NCBI GenBank assembly: GCA_026394375.1
Contig: JAPKYJ010000016.1
Location: 1-48,094, forward strand
Length of the DNA stretch: 48,094 nucleotides
From: Methanomassiliicoccales archaeon
Lineage (GTDB): Archaea > Thermoplasmatota > Thermoplasmata > Methanomassiliicoccales > UBA472
Direction: 5' to 3'
Part shown: one piece after another, positions 507-45,561 of the stretch
Layout: each line of letters starts with the position of its first letter
Numbering within the stretch: position 1 is the stretch's first letter
The notes under the pieces: generated by a model
What the model was told of the DNA's origin: nothing
The model's database searches: none
The model's input: the letters and a program-made list of their open reading frames with translations, nothing else
Made by a program: the position numbers and the translations under genes

Positions 507-535
507 GATCTCACCTGATCGGTCATATGACCGTG

Positions 536-888
536 TTACTTCCCGTTCTCCTTGGAGCCTTCCGGCTCGAACTTCAGGTCGCCCCTCTCCTTGAAGGTGG
601 AGACGACCATCAGCGTCTTGCTGTCCTTCACGCCGGGGATGCTGGAGAGATCATCGACACCAAGAATCTCTTCAATTGATTGTAGTTTTGAACCTTGACC
701 TTCGCCACGATGTCCGTGTCGCCGGTCACCAAGAACACATCCTCGACCATTAGATAGCCTGATATCCTCTCCGCGATGCGTTCTGCGTCCTTGGTGTCCA
801 CCTTGAGGTTGACGAGCGCCGTTACCTGATCATCGCCGTAGTAGGTGGAGATGACCTCCTCATATTCCAGTTTCTCGTTGTCTTGCAC
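536..888 (-). pseudogene. Lrp/AsnC-type ligand-binding (RAM) domain protein, frameshifted
   Basis: From a GTG at 888 with a strong Shine-Dalgarno (GGAGGG), the frame encodes a βαββ-type RAM domain (ALVNLKVDTKDAERIAERI, then VTGDTDIVAKVKV). This is the effector-binding half of Lrp/AsnC regulators, with no helix-turn-helix. After residue about 77 the frame runs into a stop at about 628. The conserved end of the domain (DDLSSIPGVKDSKTLMVVST) continues in another frame to a TAA at 536-538. The total of 353 nt is one base short of 118 codons, so a single-base deletion near 655-665 explains it. It could be a true recent mutation or a sequencing or assembly error. Stand-alone RAM proteins usually sense amino acids or modulate partner regulators. 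Confidence 0.75.
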
Positions 889-27928: not shown

Positions 27929-27937
27929 TTTAAATAA
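27929..27937 (+). promoter_or_regulatory. TATA box for tRNA-Lys
   Basis: TTTAAATAA is preceded by a C-rich stretch and lies about 50 bases upstream of the tRNA 5' end. The rest of 27803-27928 shows nothing recognisable. Confidence 0.5.
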
Positions 27938-28007
27938 CAGCACTCGTTTCTCCGACACCCGCATCGCCGGAGACTTACTTACCAATGGGCCCGTAGCTTA
28001 GCTAGGT

Positions 28008-28036
28008 AGGAGGTTTGGAGACAGGCCTCCCTAGAA
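28008..28036 (+). other. tRNA-Lys intron 1 (D-loop)
   Basis: The 4-bp central helix CTAG (28002-28005) pairs with CTAG (28031-28034). It is flanked by 3-base bulges GTA (28006-28008) and AAA (28035-28037), with an inner stem GGAGG/CCTCC. Cutting after the second base of each bulge removes 29 bases and restores a normal D loop. Two extra bases (28000-28001) between outer and central helix make it slightly relaxed. Confidence 0.82.
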
Positions 28037-28075
28037 AGAGCACCTGGCTTTTAACCAGATGGTCCGGGGTTCGAA

Positions 28076-28106
28076 AGGCCGTCGGTCCGCGCCGACGGAT
28101 CGAAAA
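28076..28106 (+). other. tRNA-Lys intron 2 (T-loop)
   Basis: The central helix TTCG (28070-28073) pairs with CGAA (28101-28104). Bulges are AAA (28074-28076) and AAT (28105-28107), and the T stem CGGGG/CCCCG is the outer helix. The inner hairpin CCGTCGG/CCGACGG (28079-28085/28092-28098) has 7 perfect pairs. Cutting after the second base of each bulge leaves TTCGAAT. Confidence 0.82.
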
Positions 28107-28178
28107 TCCCCGCGGGCCCGCTTGGAAGGTGAGGAGTGGACATGCAGAACCAAAACACGAACCGGGCCCTTCGATGGT

Positions 28179-28242: not shown

Positions 28243-28515
28243 GTGATTATTCTGAGCGAGGGTGTGCAGTTCAATGTCTTCAATCATGAACTTGTGCCGG
28301 CCCACCATCTCCTGAGCGAGGAGGATGCCAAGTCGGTGCTAGAGGCTCTGAAGATTGACAAGGACCAATTGCCGAAGATCCGCCGCAGCGATCCCTGCAT
28401 CAGGCTGCTGGAGGAGAAGTACGGTCACATCAAGGAAGGCAGGGTCGTCAAGGTCATCAGGCGGTCCGTGACCGCCGAGAGGGCGGACGCCTATCGTCTG
28501 GTAGTCAGAGGGTGA
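28243..28515 (+). CDS. rpoH: RNA polymerase subunit H (Rpb5 C-terminal homolog)
   Basis: A 90-residue subunit with the hallmark [24 protein letters not shown] and [16 protein letters not shown] blocks. It contacts downstream DNA in the jaw. The GTG start sits right behind GGGGCGAG. Its stop overlaps the rpoB GTG (GTGA), so the two are translationally coupled. Confidence 0.94.
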
Positions 28516-38982: not shown

Positions 38983-39024
38983 TGGGTTTGTAATCAACTG
39001 TGCAACTTCCTAGGGAGAAAGTTG

Positions 39025-42000
39025 ATGGCAGAAAAAGAGGGAGGGGCAGGCGACCTCATGGGAGGGAGGCGCCGTGATTTTCTAAGTGGCGCGGGCGCGA
39101 AGCTGCGCGATTCCTGGTTGGCGCGTCACTGGCAGTCGGCGCTGGTCCTCGCATTGATCATTCTCTTGGCCTTCTTCGTACGGAGCTATTTTTCCTATTC
39201 CATCTCTATCGACAACGGCTACCTGGTATCGGGTGGCTCTGACTCTTACTATCACGAGAGAGCTATCGACTACGTCACTTCGACGGGCGAACATCTGTTC
39301 ATGGACCCCATGCTGAACTATCCCTTCGGCATGAGGAACCCCCGTCTGCCGCTCTACGACTGGTCAGTGGCGGTCAGCGGCATGATATTCTCCGCTTTCA
39401 GCGGAGCTCCCGTCGCGGACGGAACGGGCCTGATGCTGGTCCTCTCCACCGCCTTCTGGGGCTCGCTCACGGTCATCCCGGTCTACCTGATAGGCAAGGC
39501 CGCCTTCGGTCGTCGGGCCGGGTTGGTCTCAGGGTTCCTGTTCGCGCTCATGCCTGGACATATCGAGCGAAGCGTCCTGTCCAATGCGGACCACGACTCC
39601 ATGATGCTGTTCTTCGCCGTCTGGGGCTTCTACTTCCTGCTCGAAGCTCTGATCAAGGTCAAAGGGGACCGGTGGGTACAGAGCTACGGCAGTCTCAAGG
39701 GCATCAAGGATGGGCTGCTAGGCTATGTGAAGCTCAATCAGGTCTCGCTCATCTATGCCATGCTGGCTGGGATATGCCTGACGGCCGTCGCGTTCGCCTG
39801 GGAAGGCTACATGTACCTTCTCATCATCATTCTGGTCTACTTCCTCGTCCAGATATTCGTCAACCGTTTCAAGAACATCGATTCGCTGGGCGTGTTCATG
39901 ACCATGACGGTCATGCTGGGCACCCTCTTCATCCTGGCCGCACCGATGTATAGGCAGCTTCTGCTGTGGAACACCTGGTTCGACATGCCCCTGCTGCTCT
40001 TCGCCGGCATGGTGGTGGTCGGGCTCATCTTCGTTCTCACTAGGGATTATCCATGGACGCTGGTGGTGCCGAGCTTCATCATACTGGTGGTGGCCGCTCT
40101 CGCGATCCTGTCGGTGGTAGCGCCCGCCCTCTTCGATGCCATCATCACCGGGCAAGGATACCTGGTGAAGAGCAAGCTCTACTCCACCATCGGCGAGGCG
40201 CAGGCGCCCTCGTTCTCCGTCCTGGCCTTGTCATTCGGCGCTCTGACCTTTTGGCTGGGGTTCGTGGGACTGGTCTGGGCGGCCATCAGGATCCCCAAGA
40301 ACCTCGCTCCCCACTACATATTCCTGGTCGTTTGGATAGGCACGGCGCTGTTCATGGCCATGTCCGCTGGCCGTTTCCTCTTCAACGCCGCTCCGGCCTT
40401 CGCGATATCCGCGGGTTGGATCGTCGTGCTGTTAATCCAAATGGCCAAGTTCGAGGACCTGCCCAAAGGGCTCTCTGGTTTCCGGCTGCGGAATCCCTTG
40501 CTATCCCTGCGTAAGGGCGTCAAGGTGCGCCACATGCTGGGTGCGATCTTCTTGGCCTTCCTCATCATCCTGCCCAACGTCTGGATGGCGGTGGACGCGG
40601 GCATGCCTACGCAGGTCAAGCGCGAATATGACCTGCAGGTCTACGACCACCTACCGCAGATCATGCGGCCAGCGGACTACGACTCCATCAACGGTTCCTA
40701 CTGGTATTTCGGGGCCTTCTCGTACGGTCTGCCCATGCCCAACGATTATTTCCCAGCGGCGTGGAGCTGGCTATCCGAACAAGATAACGACGTCAATCCG
40801 CCCTACGAACGACCGGCCTTCCTGTCCTGGTGGGATTACGGGTTCGAGGCCATCCAGGCAGGGCAGCATCCGACCGTGGCGGACGACTTCCAGAACGGCT
40901 ACAATTTCGCTGGCTCGTTCATCACCTGCACCGATGAGGCGCAGGGAGTGGCCATGCTCGTGACCCTTGCGGTCCAGAAGGGTCAGGCGCCTTCAATGGT
41001 CGTCCAGGTGGACAGCATCCTGGTGGCGCATGGCGTTGACCTGGCCAAAGTGAAGGATATAATGTACAATCCGTCGAAGTACATCTCCATCGTCATGTCC
41101 AACCCCGAGATCTACGGACCGTTCGACATGGACAACACCGTCCCCTCCAGTCGGAACGCCATGTACGTGGCGCTGCGGGTGGAGCTGGCAAAGCTCGGGC
41201 TTGATGAGCTGGCCTCGGTCTATAGCGAGCTCAGGCAGGTCACCGGCGTGGACGTCGGCTACTTCGCGGTCGATACCAGGCTGTTCCCGTTCTCCGCCAC
41301 CAGCGGCAACGTGTTCTATGCCCCGGCGAAGCTCTCGGACAGGCGCATCGACCCGGCGTCCAACGCTCCCATCGACTTCTACAAGATCATGGCGGTGGAC
41401 TCCAACGGCAACCTGGTGGACATAGCGAACATCACCGCGGACATGACCATCATTGACTACCAGATAATCTACAAGGACATGTTCTACGAGAGCATGCTCT
41501 ACCGGGCCTTCATGGGATTCGGGCCGACGGACCTCGGACTGACAACTCAAGGCCTGCCCGGCCTCTCCGGTTCCCTGGCGAGCTATCAGCCCATGCAGGC
41601 CTGGAACATGAGCCACTTCCGCCTGGTCTACAAGACAGCCTACTTCAACCCGTACCCCCGAGAGATGGTGCAGAACCACTCGGAGGCCTGGAGGGCGGTC
41701 TCCTATGAGGAGGCGAAGTCGCTCGAGCAGCAGATCAACGACAAGCTCATAACCGGCGTGGTGGACTATTCGGCATCCACTCTGACGAAGGGCATCGTCT
41801 TCATCCAGTACTACGATGGAGTGATCATCGAAGGAAAGGCGACCACCTCCAGCGGCAATCCGTACCCGGACGCGTACGTTACGGTGCTGGATGAGTATGA
41901 CACACCGCACATGACCGTCAAGACCGATTCGGACGGGCACTATCGCGTCCTCGCCCCCTTCGGCAAGGTCAACGTGGTCTTCTCCACCGGGGAGTTGGAC

Positions 42001-45000
42001 AAGCTTACGCAGATCGCCACCGAGATCGGCCGCAAGACGTTCGACTTCACCTATGACCAGGCGATGCGCAAGCAGGTCGACTCCGACCAGGACGGCATCT
42101 TCGACTACCTCGTCGATGGCAACATCGTGCTTCCGTCGTCGACCGTCAGTGGCGACCTGTTCTGGGACCTGGATGGCAGCGGCGACCTCAACTCCAACGA
42201 CCAGGCGATCGTTGGAGCCAAAGTTGTGCTGCAGAACACCACCACCGGCTTCCGCTTGGAGACCACCTCCACCACCAGTGGATACAGCTTCGCCGGTGTC
42301 CCGCCCATGAACGGAGAAGTATTCGCGGTCGTGGAAGGGCATCAGGGAACCGCCATCACCGTCACCGTGGAATCGAAGCAGGATGTCACGGTCGACATAG
42401 CCATCAAACCGGCAAGCATCGGCGGCAAAGTGGTGTTCGGCGACAACTCCCCTGCCTCGGACCTCCTGCTCCAGCTGCTCGATTCCCAGAACGGCAACCT
42501 GACCGTTCAGTTCACGGGCGAGAGCGGCAGCTTCAACTTCGAGAAGCTTCTGCCAGGTAATTACACACTGCAAACCGGGCAGGATGAGTTCTCCCTCGGC
42601 CAGCAGGTCTTCGCCCTGGGGAACGGAGAGACCGTAACGCGCACATTCACGCTCTACGAGGCCATGAGCGTGTCCGGTCAGATCCTCACTCCGTCCCTGA
42701 CCCCGGCGGCCAATGCCACCGTGGCCCTTCTCTCTTCGAAGACGAAGATATGGACGCAGACCGACTCCCAGGGTCGTTTCCACATCACCGTTCCGTCCGA
42801 TTCCTACACCCTGTTCAGCTTGGCGGTCATCAATGGCAGGGACTATGCGGCCCTTCTGCAGATCCCGGCGACCGTCGGTCAGACCCAGGCGAATCCTACC
42901 CTGAGCTCCGCATTCTACGTGAGCGGCAAGCTGGTGGGAGACGTGTCCTTGGACGGGGTCAAGGTGCAAGCCCAGTCCCGCACCACTGGAGCGAAGCTCA
43001 CCGCGGTGGCGAACTCCACCGGCGAATTCCGCATGTTGCTGCCCTCGGACCTCTACTTCTTCTATGTCGATAGCCAGGTGACCGCCTACTGGAACGACGC
43101 CTTCATAGCCACGGACGCAACCCTGACGCTAAGCCTCGCTCCCTCGGCCAGGATCACCGGCACGGTCTGGTACGATGCCAATGGTGACGGATTGCGCGCC
43201 TCCAGCGAGGGAAGGACGAACGTCACCTTGACCGTGGCGGACGCGGATGGCCGCTCGATCACCACCCTCACCGATAGCACCGGGTACTATAGCCTCAACC
43301 TGGTCCCCAACCGTTACTATACACTGTTGGTGAACGAGAACGGCTACGCCCCGCAGGAGTTCAGCTATTCTCCGCTCACTGGCAACACGCAACAGGACAT
43401 CCAGCTGCTTGCCTACAACCGCACCGTCTCCGGTGTGGTCAGTTATCTAGGTTCGCGCTTGCCGGGTATAACCGTGACCTTCACCTCGACCGGGTCGGGG
43501 GCTCAGACGGCCACCGCTACTTCAGATGGGCTGGGCCGGTTCACCCTCTCCCTGCATCCTGGCAACTACAACGTCGTGGTGGTCCAGAACGCGACCTTTG
43601 GCTCGAACGCCACTCAGTATCAGTCCTCTCAGAGCTTGAGCGTGGAGATCGGCAAGGACCCCTCCGGTCTGGCGATCGACGTGGTCAGGCGCGTGCTGGT
43701 GACCGGTACCCTCACCCCCGAACGGGCGTTCAGCGCCCGGGTGGTCATCAGCGGGCCGGACTCGATGGAGCTGCGGGCCACTACCGACTTCACCACCTAC
43801 CTGCAAGAAGGCACGTACGAAGTATACGCGAGCCAAGAGCGGTTCGCCAGCCGGTTCGCCAGCCTAGGCAGCTATGTCGTATCGCCCAGCTCGAACACCA
43901 TCACCATCAATACCGAGCAGGCGTACACCGTTTCCGGCAGCATCTACTACGAGGGCTCGCGCCTCATGAACCCGGCCTCGGTGAAGATCACCAAGAGCAC
44001 GGGTGGAAGTTACACTCTGCAAAGCACGCTCGCGGGCACGTTCACGCTGAACTTGCCAGCTGGTACGTACAACATCACTACCGATGCGCGCTCGAAACAG
44101 TATTTGGACACCCAGACCGAACGATACTTCCGCTACCTGGGCTACCTGGACTTCGACCTGACGGCCAACAAGGACGTGACCGTGAATGTCAAGAGGATCC
44201 TCGACAACACCAGCGTCATAGGTCAGGTCATCTTCGGCGATGTGCCAGTGGCCGCCCAGCTGCAATTCGTGGCCACATCGTTAACGGCCGTGAACGCCAC
44301 AGCGGAAGCGAGCTCGTCCGGCTTCAATTTCGACCTGGCCCCGGGCAACTACAGCGTCTACATCAAGCAGCTGTCCGGCGTGGGCGCGTTCCTGGGCAAG
44401 CTGGATGTGAGGCCTTACGTGGTCGAGTACATCAATTTCACGCTGGTGGCGGGCATACCGTTCTCCGGCGTCACCCTGGTCAACGGCATCCCAGCCTCCG
44501 CCCTGGTTGAGATCTCCAGCCTTGACTATCTTTCATTGCGCAGCGATGCCAGCGGAGGGTTCGAGGTCTACCTGCCTTCTGACCTGTACCAGGTGAAGGC
44601 CACCGCCTCGGGTCAGGAGAGAGGGGTCACGGTCAGCTATGTCTCCGAGCTCGCTCTGAACCTCACCTCTCCCCAAAGCCGCACCATCTCCCTGGTCAAG
44701 GTGCCAAAGCGCTTGGTTTCGGTGCAATGGGACTCCTCGGAGAAGAGGACCATCAACGGCGGGGAGAGCGTGGTCTACAACATCCGCATCGTCAACAAGG
44801 GGAACGTACCGGACACCTATCGCCTGGGCACAGTCGGCTCGACATCGGGATGGACCATGACCCTTTCCGAGTCCACGGTCACCGTGGACTTCGGCCAGCA
44901 GAACTCGCAGCTGGTGACCTTGACCATCACCGCCCCCGTGGGCGCCAAGGTCAGCCATCAGTCGTTGTCGGTGAGGGCTACGAGCACGGAGCTGGCGACG

Positions 45001-45561
45001 ATCACGAACAGCGCGACCGTGGAGGTGGGAATTGCCCCCGTCCACGCCGTCTCGATCACGTACACCAAGCCCCTGACCACCAGCGGTTCCTCCTTCAGTT
45101 ACAGCTTGAGCCTGAAGAACACGGGCAACGTCGACGACAGCTTCCTAGTGAGCGCGGTCAACCTGGCAGGCCTGCAGGACCTGGGCTGGAAGGCCGAGGT
45201 ACGCAGCGGCACGGGAGCCTTCGGCAGCAACGTCACCATCCAGGCGACCGCCGGCAACCAGGTGAGCTTCGAGCTGCGCCTGACGCCGGTGCGCGCCAAT
45301 CCCGAGCCATCGATAACGGTCGTCCTCACGGCCACCTCCGTATCCACTCCCACGGCGAGCACGGTGCTGCCGTTCCAGCCGGAACTGCCGAGGTTCACCA
45401 TCCCCTCCGGAGGCCTGGCGGTCACAGGGGACAAGGTGAACAGCATCATACCCGATGTCCCGGCGGGCACCTTGGTGCTCCTGGGCATGGTGCTGGCGAT
45501 GTTCACCGTGTTCGTGCTCGTCGGCATGCAGAAGGGGGTGTTCCGACGAAGAAAGCGCTGA
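39025..45561 (+). CDS. aglB: Giant AglB/STT3 oligosaccharyltransferase fused to a surface repeat array
   Basis: A 2178-residue protein. Residues 1-925 are an STT3/AglB: the first membrane helix (about 35-55), acidic motifs D73-SYYH and D189-H-D191, about 13 helices, and the catalytic W602-W-D-Y-G606. It transfers lipid-linked glycans to Asn. Residues about 930-1890 form roughly ten tandem carboxypeptidase-regulatory-like β-sandwiches, each opening with a xVxGxV-type strand and holding DSxGxFxxxLPxGxY. One has a DLDGSGDLNSND calcium-like loop. Many N-x-S/T sequons occur. Residues about 1893-2135 are two NEW3-like domains (YNIRIVNKGNVPDTY, YSLSLKNTGNVDDSF). A membrane helix (about 2147-2168) and basic RRRKR end follow. 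Normal archaeal AglB has 800-1000 residues. The frame is open throughout. Confidence 0.9.
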   Translation: MAEKEGGAGDLMGGRRRDFLSGAGAKLRDSWLARHWQSALVLALIILLAFFVRSYFSYSISIDNGYLVSGGSDSYYHERAIDYVTSTGEHLFMDPMLNYPFGMRNPRLPLYDWSVAVSGMIFSAFSGAPVADGTGLMLVLSTAFWGSLTVIPVYLIGKAAFGRRAGLVSGFLFALMPGHIERSVLSNADHDSMMLFFAVWGFYFLLEALIKVKGDRWVQSYGSLKGIKDGLLGYVKLNQVSLIYAMLAGICLTAVAFAWEGYMYLLIIILVYFLVQIFVNRFKNIDSLGVFMTMTVMLGTLFILAAPMYRQLLLWNTWFDMPLLLFAGMVVVGLIFVLTRDYPWTLVVPSFIILVVAALAILSVVAPALFDAIITGQGYLVKSKLYSTIGEAQAPSFSVLALSFGALTFWLGFVGLVWAAIRIPKNLAPHYIFLVVWIGTALFMAMSAGRFLFNAAPAFAISAGWIVVLLIQMAKFEDLPKGLSGFRLRNPLLSLRKGVKVRHMLGAIFLAFLIILPNVWMAVDAGMPTQVKREYDLQVYDHLPQIMRPADYDSINGSYWYFGAFSYGLPMPNDYFPAAWSWLSEQDNDVNPPYERPAFLSWWDYGFEAIQAGQHPTVADDFQNGYNFAGSFITCTDEAQGVAMLVTLAVQKGQAPSMVVQVDSILVAHGVDLAKVKDIMYNPSKYISIVMSNPEIYGPFDMDNTVPSSRNAMYVALRVELAKLGLDELASVYSELRQVTGVDVGYFAVDTRLFPFSATSGNVFYAPAKLSDRRIDPASNAPIDFYKIMAVDSNGNLVDIANITADMTIIDYQIIYKDMFYESMLYRAFMGFGPTDLGLTTQGLPGLSGSLASYQPMQAWNMSHFRLVYKTAYFNPYPREMVQNHSEAWRAVSYEEAKSLEQQINDKLITGVVDYSASTLTKGIVFIQYYDGVIIEGKATTSSGNPYPDAYVTVLDEYDTPHMTVKTDSDGHYRVLAPFGKVNVVFSTGELDKLTQIATEIGRKTFDFTYDQAMRKQVDSDQDGIFDYLVDGNIVLPSSTVSGDLFWDLDGSGDLNSNDQAIVGAKVVLQNTTTGFRLETTSTTSGYSFAGVPPMNGEVFAVVEGHQGTAITVTVESKQDVTVDIAIKPASIGGKVVFGDNSPASDLLLQLLDSQNGNLTVQFTGESGSFNFEKLLPGNYTLQTGQDEFSLGQQVFALGNGETVTRTFTLYEAMSVSGQILTPSLTPAANATVALLSSKTKIWTQTDSQGRFHITVPSDSYTLFSLAVINGRDYAALLQIPATVGQTQANPTLSSAFYVSGKLVGDVSLDGVKVQAQSRTTGAKLTAVANSTGEFRMLLPSDLYFFYVDSQVTAYWNDAFIATDATLTLSLAPSARITGTVWYDANGDGLRASSEGRTNVTLTVADADGRSITTLTDSTGYYSLNLVPNRYYTLLVNENGYAPQEFSYSPLTGNTQQDIQLLAYNRTVSGVVSYLGSRLPGITVTFTSTGSGAQTATATSDGLGRFTLSLHPGNYNVVVVQNATFGSNATQYQSSQSLSVEIGKDPSGLAIDVVRRVLVTGTLTPERAFSARVVISGPDSMELRATTDFTTYLQEGTYEVYASQERFASRFASLGSYVVSPSSNTITINTEQAYTVSGSIYYEGSRLMNPASVKITKSTGGSYTLQSTLAGTFTLNLPAGTYNITTDARSKQYLDTQTERYFRYLGYLDFDLTANKDVTVNVKRILDNTSVIGQVIFGDVPVAAQLQFVATSLTAVNATAEASSSGFNFDLAPGNYSVYIKQLSGVGAFLGKLDVRPYVVEYINFTLVAGIPFSGVTLVNGIPASALVEISSLDYLSLRSDASGGFEVYLPSDLYQVKATASGQERGVTVSYVSELALNLTSPQSRTISLVKVPKRLVSVQWDSSEKRTINGGESVVYNIRIVNKGNVPDTYRLGTVGSTSGWTMTLSESTVTVDFGQQNSQLVTLTITAPVGAKVSHQSLSVRATSTELATITNSATVEVGIAPVHAVSITYTKPLTTSGSSFSYSLSLKNTGNVDDSFLVSAVNLAGLQDLGWKAEVRSGTGAFGSNVTIQATAGNQVSFELRLTPVRANPEPSITVVLTATSVSTPTASTVLPFQPELPRFTIPSGGLAVTGDKVNSIIPDVPAGTLVLLGMVLAMFTVFVLVGMQKGVFRRRKR

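Follow-up and report, generated by a model that had tools for sequence, protein, structure and literature searches.

A tRNA-Lys(UUU) gene with D-loop and T-loop introns, conserved across most Thermoplasmatota alongside an α'2-type splicing endonuclease

The window, by which we mean the whole 48,094-nucleotide stretch of Methanomassiliicoccales DNA analysed here, carries on its forward strand (27987–28120) a gene from which excision of 28008–28036 (intron 1, 29 nt) and 28076–28106 (intron 2, 31 nt) yields a 74-nt tRNA-Lys(UUU). Exon 1 (27987–28007) comprises the 5′ strands of the acceptor and D stems and the D-loop as far as U20. Exon 2 (28037–28075) runs from A21 through the 3′ strand of the D stem, the anticodon arm with its UUU anticodon (28050–28052), the variable loop and the 5′ strand of the T stem to A59 in the T-loop, and exon 3 (28107–28120) supplies U60, the 3′ strands of the T and acceptor stems and the discriminator G73. 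The introns lie at positions 20/21 of the D-loop and 59/60 of the T-loop, both of which are on the list of known intron sites (PMC4090602); neither is at 37/38, and both are non-canonical, as the initial annotation had stated. ARAGORN identifies the spliced sequence as tRNA-Lys(ttt) and makes no call on the unspliced one, which scores 23.6 bits against the Rfam tRNA model (cut-off 29). A blind enumeration of every possible bulge-helix-bulge (BHB) intron, in which the spliced products were scored, placed the same two introns at the top and agrees with ARAGORN on the coordinates and UUU anticodon first proposed; moving the D-site cut by 1 base gives an equal score and a 76-base product. The mature tRNA had also been described as perfect, and while its 74 nucleotides are indeed restored, a C27/A43 mismatch sits atop the anticodon stem.

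Each of the two sites has 3-nt bulges on either side of a 4-bp central helix, with a predicted cut after the second bulge base, an arrangement noted at the outset and recovered by the enumeration. At the D site, CTAG in exon 1 (28002–28005) pairs with CTAG in the intron (28031–28034), leaving bulges at 28006–28008 and 28035–28037. At the T site, TTCG of the exon (28070–28073, tRNA positions 54–57) pairs with CGAA of the intron (28101–28104), and the bulges are at 28074–28076 and 28105–28107. The T-loop site is a full, canonical BHB whose flush outer helix is the T stem itself. The motif in the D-loop is relaxed, its central helix being separated from the D stem by the unpaired A14-G15; both bulges are present, and the inner helix is strong. 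When the introns were shuffled, the observed helix score was reached in 0.005% of trials for the D site and 0.4% for the T site, and we regard the conservation and covariation among relatives, presented below, as far stronger evidence than this result.

Upstream of the tRNA by 50–58 bases is a TATA-like box (TTTAAATAA, 27929–27937, forward strand), and most of the relatives listed have a comparable box about as far upstream. Downstream on the same strand is a short ORF (28243–28515) that we read by inspection as rpoH, encoding RNA polymerase subunit H; it starts an rpoH-rpoB-rpoA cluster in which rpoB and rpoA1 were assigned by Pfam. The leader CTTACTTACCAA (27974–27985) and the trailer TTGGAAGGTGAG (28122–28133) can pair at 11 of 12 positions, which would lengthen the acceptor stem. 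This pairing is found in near relatives and not phylum-wide, and we dropped it as a general feature.

The source genome (1.73 Mb in 31 contigs, of which the window is one) is 99.8% complete, and the rpoB of the window is 90% identical to that of the Methanomassiliicoccaceae MAG fen_65 and 85–80% identical to those of further Methanomassiliicoccales. The initial annotation had named a second, intact tRNA-Lys(UUU), with the present copy unexpressed, as one observation that would speak against it; a search of this genome for the Lys-UUU anticodon arm, allowing up to 3 mismatches, found no other, and the arm in the window is unique. The tRNA-Lys(CUU) of the same genome is intronless. AAA codons are in use, with 23 AAA against 141 AAG in rpoB, rpoA1 and rpoA2. 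A decayed tRNA pseudogene, or a chance tRNA-like sequence with random insertions, would account for the failure of standard tRNA finders to detect the gene, but it is hard to square with intact exons in the only Lys-UUU gene found, and the relatives weigh against it further.

In a search of 60 relatives, the pre-tRNA was matched over its full length in five of six families in the order Methanomassiliicoccales. The sixth (f2) gave fragments only, and its single fully read Lys(UUU) gene (L194) is intronless. In relatives, among them the named Thermoplasmatota contigs in which the gene was dissected, the orthologous tRNA lies about 500 bases upstream of rpoB, so that the place of the gene beside rpoH-rpoB is conserved, contrary to what a chance sequence would lead one to expect. 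Among 100 distinct orthologues, the D-loop intron is present in 84 and the T-loop intron in 79, and 16 have an additional intron at 37/38; by combination, 62 carry D and T introns, 12 carry all three, 4 combine D with 37/38, D is the sole intron in 6 and T in 5, and 11 are intronless. The initial annotation considered multiple non-canonical introns rare in lineages of this kind, whereas most Thermoplasmatota orthologues of this gene have them. A tree of rpoB with 72 rows requires a minimum of 3 changes in the D intron, 6 in the T intron and 3 in the 37/38 intron, and the introns appear to be inherited vertically within the phylum, with gain and loss rare. All 11 rows on the Thermoplasmatales and Aciduliprofundum side of the tree are intronless. 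As the tree is unrooted, it is compatible both with introns already present in the ancestor of the phylum and with a later origin, once that side had branched off.

The two strands of the D-site helix vary in concert. The exon half of the D-site central helix occurs as CTAG, GTAG, TTCG, CCAG, GTCG, ATAG and other sequences, and the intron half follows it: the outermost pair is C-G in 70 genes, G-C in 4, and U-A, A-U and G-U in one each, while the second and third pairs alternate between U-A or A-U and C-G. This central helix is 98% paired across the orthologues, compared with 89% (maximum 91%) when the 3′ halves are swapped among species and 26–46% when they are slid, and the D inner helix is 94% paired compared with 76% when swapped, where the swap controls ignore the relatedness of the species and the percentages are not to be taken as probabilities. 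Inner-helix pairing is above the swapped control in each of the three introns (D, T and 37/38). The T-site exon half is invariably TTCG, and as only one-sided changes can occur, the swap test is uninformative for the T central helix, which is 99.7% paired as against 47–70% when slid. Since matching insertions recur at these two positions in most of the 100 orthologues, accompanied by compensating changes, the pseudogene and chance readings were rejected, and we consider them extremely improbable. Given the conserved introns, the few changes on the tree and the covariation at the D site, the two-intron tRNA-Lys(UUU) gene is almost certainly old and functional and no rare oddity.

Conservation of both sites over a long time might also be expected if the excised introns, or a precursor that retains them, had a regulatory role, for instance in the supply of lysine tRNA, and were kept for that reason. 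Outside the helices, however, the intron sequences diverge freely, and there are lineages in which one or both introns have been lost, which makes regulation a very improbable reason for their retention.

The genome encodes one ORF that matches the splicing endonuclease family PF01974 (EndA), with two repeats scoring 76 and 94 bits. It aligns over its full length with the fused Methanopyrus kandleri construct 5x89 and with the Archaeoglobus fulgidus EndA, and also matches the ARMAN-2 chain 4fz2. Its C-terminal repeat contains the catalytic Tyr, His and Lys, aligned with those of A. fulgidus EndA. The A. fulgidus row of this alignment derives for the most part from the structure match, and its first and last residues are presumed. 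We found neither separate catalytic and structural subunit genes nor a three-unit ε chain, as (αβ)2 or ε2 enzymes would have, in this genome with its single ORF. A PF01974 match is present in 58 of the 61 genomes of the order and in 18 of 20 further Thermoplasmatota genomes, the latter including carriers of three-intron genes, and each has at most one such ORF; no second PF01974 gene was found in the 61 genomes of the order or in the 18 further genomes with matches. Between the FYG and LSLIE motifs, where the Crenarchaea-specific loop of Aeropyrum pernix inserts about 10 residues, there is no insertion in any of the Thermoplasmatota EndAs aligned. These features assign the enzyme, here and across the phylum, to the α'2 type of fused protein, and not to the (αβ)2 or ε2 types, which provides the endonuclease typing suggested as a check when the gene was first noted. 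The genome also has one RtcB ligase gene.

With genes for EndA and RtcB and two BHB motifs at hand, we propose that the tRNA-Lys(UUU) gene is functional and that its two BHB introns, inherited vertically, are cut out by the α'2 EndA and its exons joined by RtcB, and we hold this reading to be very probably correct. One bulge-helix-bulge motif would form at each site of the pre-tRNA and be cleaved on both strands after the second bulge base by EndA, a homodimer encoded by a single gene; ligation of the exons by RtcB would then yield the 74-nt tRNA that AAA codons require. That the gene is transcribed, where exactly its transcript is cut and that EndA acts on the relaxed D-loop site are what we infer from the sequence.

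The α'2 enzymes have been described as narrow in specificity (PMC6379350; PMC4090602), and reviews state that α4 and α'2 enzymes cut canonical motifs only (PMC4033280; PMC6379350; PMC4090602). The same reviews summarise archaea with α4 or α2 enzymes as having few tRNA introns, one per gene and at the canonical site, and infer that the architecture of the enzyme sets which introns can exist (PMC4090602; PMC4033280; PMC6379350). The Thermoplasmatota contradict this summary, at least in where introns occur. A direct exception to the architecture rule is this tRNA-Lys, which most of a phylum with a loop-less α'2 EndA has retained with two or three introns, drawn from three sites. Nor is the need for an endonuclease type of broad specificity, which the initial annotation had anticipated, borne out: the only EndA found is an α'2 protein that lacks the Crenarchaea-specific loop and belongs to a type described as narrow (PMC6379350), although this particular enzyme may nevertheless be broad.

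The introns could be real and the D-loop intron nonetheless be removed with the help of an unrecognised factor or a divergent β-like subunit, and not by the α'2 EndA alone. The D site is relaxed, tests of α'2 enzymes have to date shown narrow specificity (PMC6379350) and the Crenarchaea-specific loop is absent, all of which would fit such assistance. Set against this are the lack of a second PF01974 gene across the genomes searched, the retention at the D site of both 3-nt bulges and the 4-bp helix, and the precedent of the A. fulgidus α'2 EndA, which can cleave a relaxed 37/38 motif within a full pre-tRNA (PMC6379350). On balance, we consider a helper unlikely and favour cutting by the α'2 EndA itself. 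A broader proposal is that, through most of its history, a whole phylum with a loop-less α'2 EndA has been splicing at a relaxed D-loop BHB, in which case the rule based on subunit type and loop would fail and the motif would be recognised in another way; we find the case for and against it evenly balanced.

Other archaea provide points of comparison, and the intron positions and the mechanism are already known from them. Multiple-intron tRNA genes of the Thermoproteales were reportedly described by Sugahara (2008) and Fujishima (2010). The Thermoproteales, where multiple introns are prominent, and the soil Asgard archaea, also rich in them (PMC11291895), resemble the present case in having short BHB introns at non-canonical sites that include 20/21 and 59/60 (PMC4090602), and up to three of them per tRNA. 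The Thermoproteales, however, have an (αβ)2 EndA with the specific loop and a recent, widespread gain of introns, in contrast to the vertical conservation at one orthologous tRNA and the α'2 EndA seen here. A 2014 review lists a few Euryarchaeota with multiple introns (PMC4033280), and the multi-intron tRNAs of M. kandleri and Methanothermobacter (PMC4033280) are, like ours, cases of non-canonical introns outside the Thermoproteota; the M. kandleri EndA is (αβ)2, whereas here there is a single fused α'2 gene. Korarchaeum cryptofilum likewise combines an α2-type EndA with non-canonical tRNA introns and was described in 2014 as the only α2 archaeon to do so (PMC4033280), but its EndA carries the specific loop that the aligned Thermoplasmatota EndAs lack. 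In the literature searched, we found no description of these tRNA introns for Thermoplasmatota. With 673 non-canonical introns identified by tRNAscan-SE 2.0 across 217 archaeal genomes (PMC8450103), some genes of the present set may already be listed in databases. What is new is the phylum-wide conservation, its pairing with an α'2 enzyme and a likely explanation for a gap in the tRNA set of Methanomassiliicoccus luminyensis.

The M. luminyensis genome paper found no tRNA-Lys, which its authors guessed to be located in the missing 17 kb (PMC4153887). A relative at the family level (genome G043) belongs to f6, the family that includes the contigs with the name Methanomassiliicoccus; its tRNA-Lys(UUU) gene (L145) is interrupted by D and T introns and its tRNA-Lys(CUU) gene (L186) by a T-loop intron of 31 bases. 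Both genes of this relative are thus interrupted in the T-loop, and the same state in M. luminyensis, which would have concealed its two tRNA-Lys genes from the tools used, is a likely explanation. A T-loop intron of 22–31 bases is present in the tRNA-Lys(CUU) of three related genomes (L186, L197 and L198). Genes of this kind in Thermoplasmatota will be overlooked or misread by annotation pipelines.

Further tRNAs of the source genome are also interrupted. Restricting the list to clear cases, as a broad tRNA parser misplaced several introns, we find introns at 20/21 in Thr-GGU and Thr-CGU, and one at 59/60 together with one at the anticodon in Arg-UCU, so that both sites of the lysine gene, 20/21 and 59/60, are occupied again elsewhere in the genome. 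The D-loop of Val-UAC also contains an insertion, with ends that are less certain. A search of the genome for split T-arm patterns returned Lys-UUU and Arg-UCU only. Neither the RNA model nor the T-arm patterns found Leu-UAG, Ser-GGA, Glu-CUC, Ile-CAU and others in this genome, and further introns or assembly gaps may hide these isoacceptors.

Elsewhere in the window, a tRNA-Gly(CCC) on the reverse strand close to the contig start (76–148) has a near copy at one end of contig C19, and a 141-base stretch in the same part of the window (518–658) is shared exactly between these two contig ends. Contigs C1 and C12 likewise share a stretch that contains a piece of a tRNA-Arg, and the shared contig ends probably reflect assembly overlap or strain variation. 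A 2179-aa ORF on the forward strand (39022–45561) begins with an N-terminal oligosaccharyltransferase (STT3) domain, which is followed by a long array of carboxypeptidase-regulatory-like repeats.
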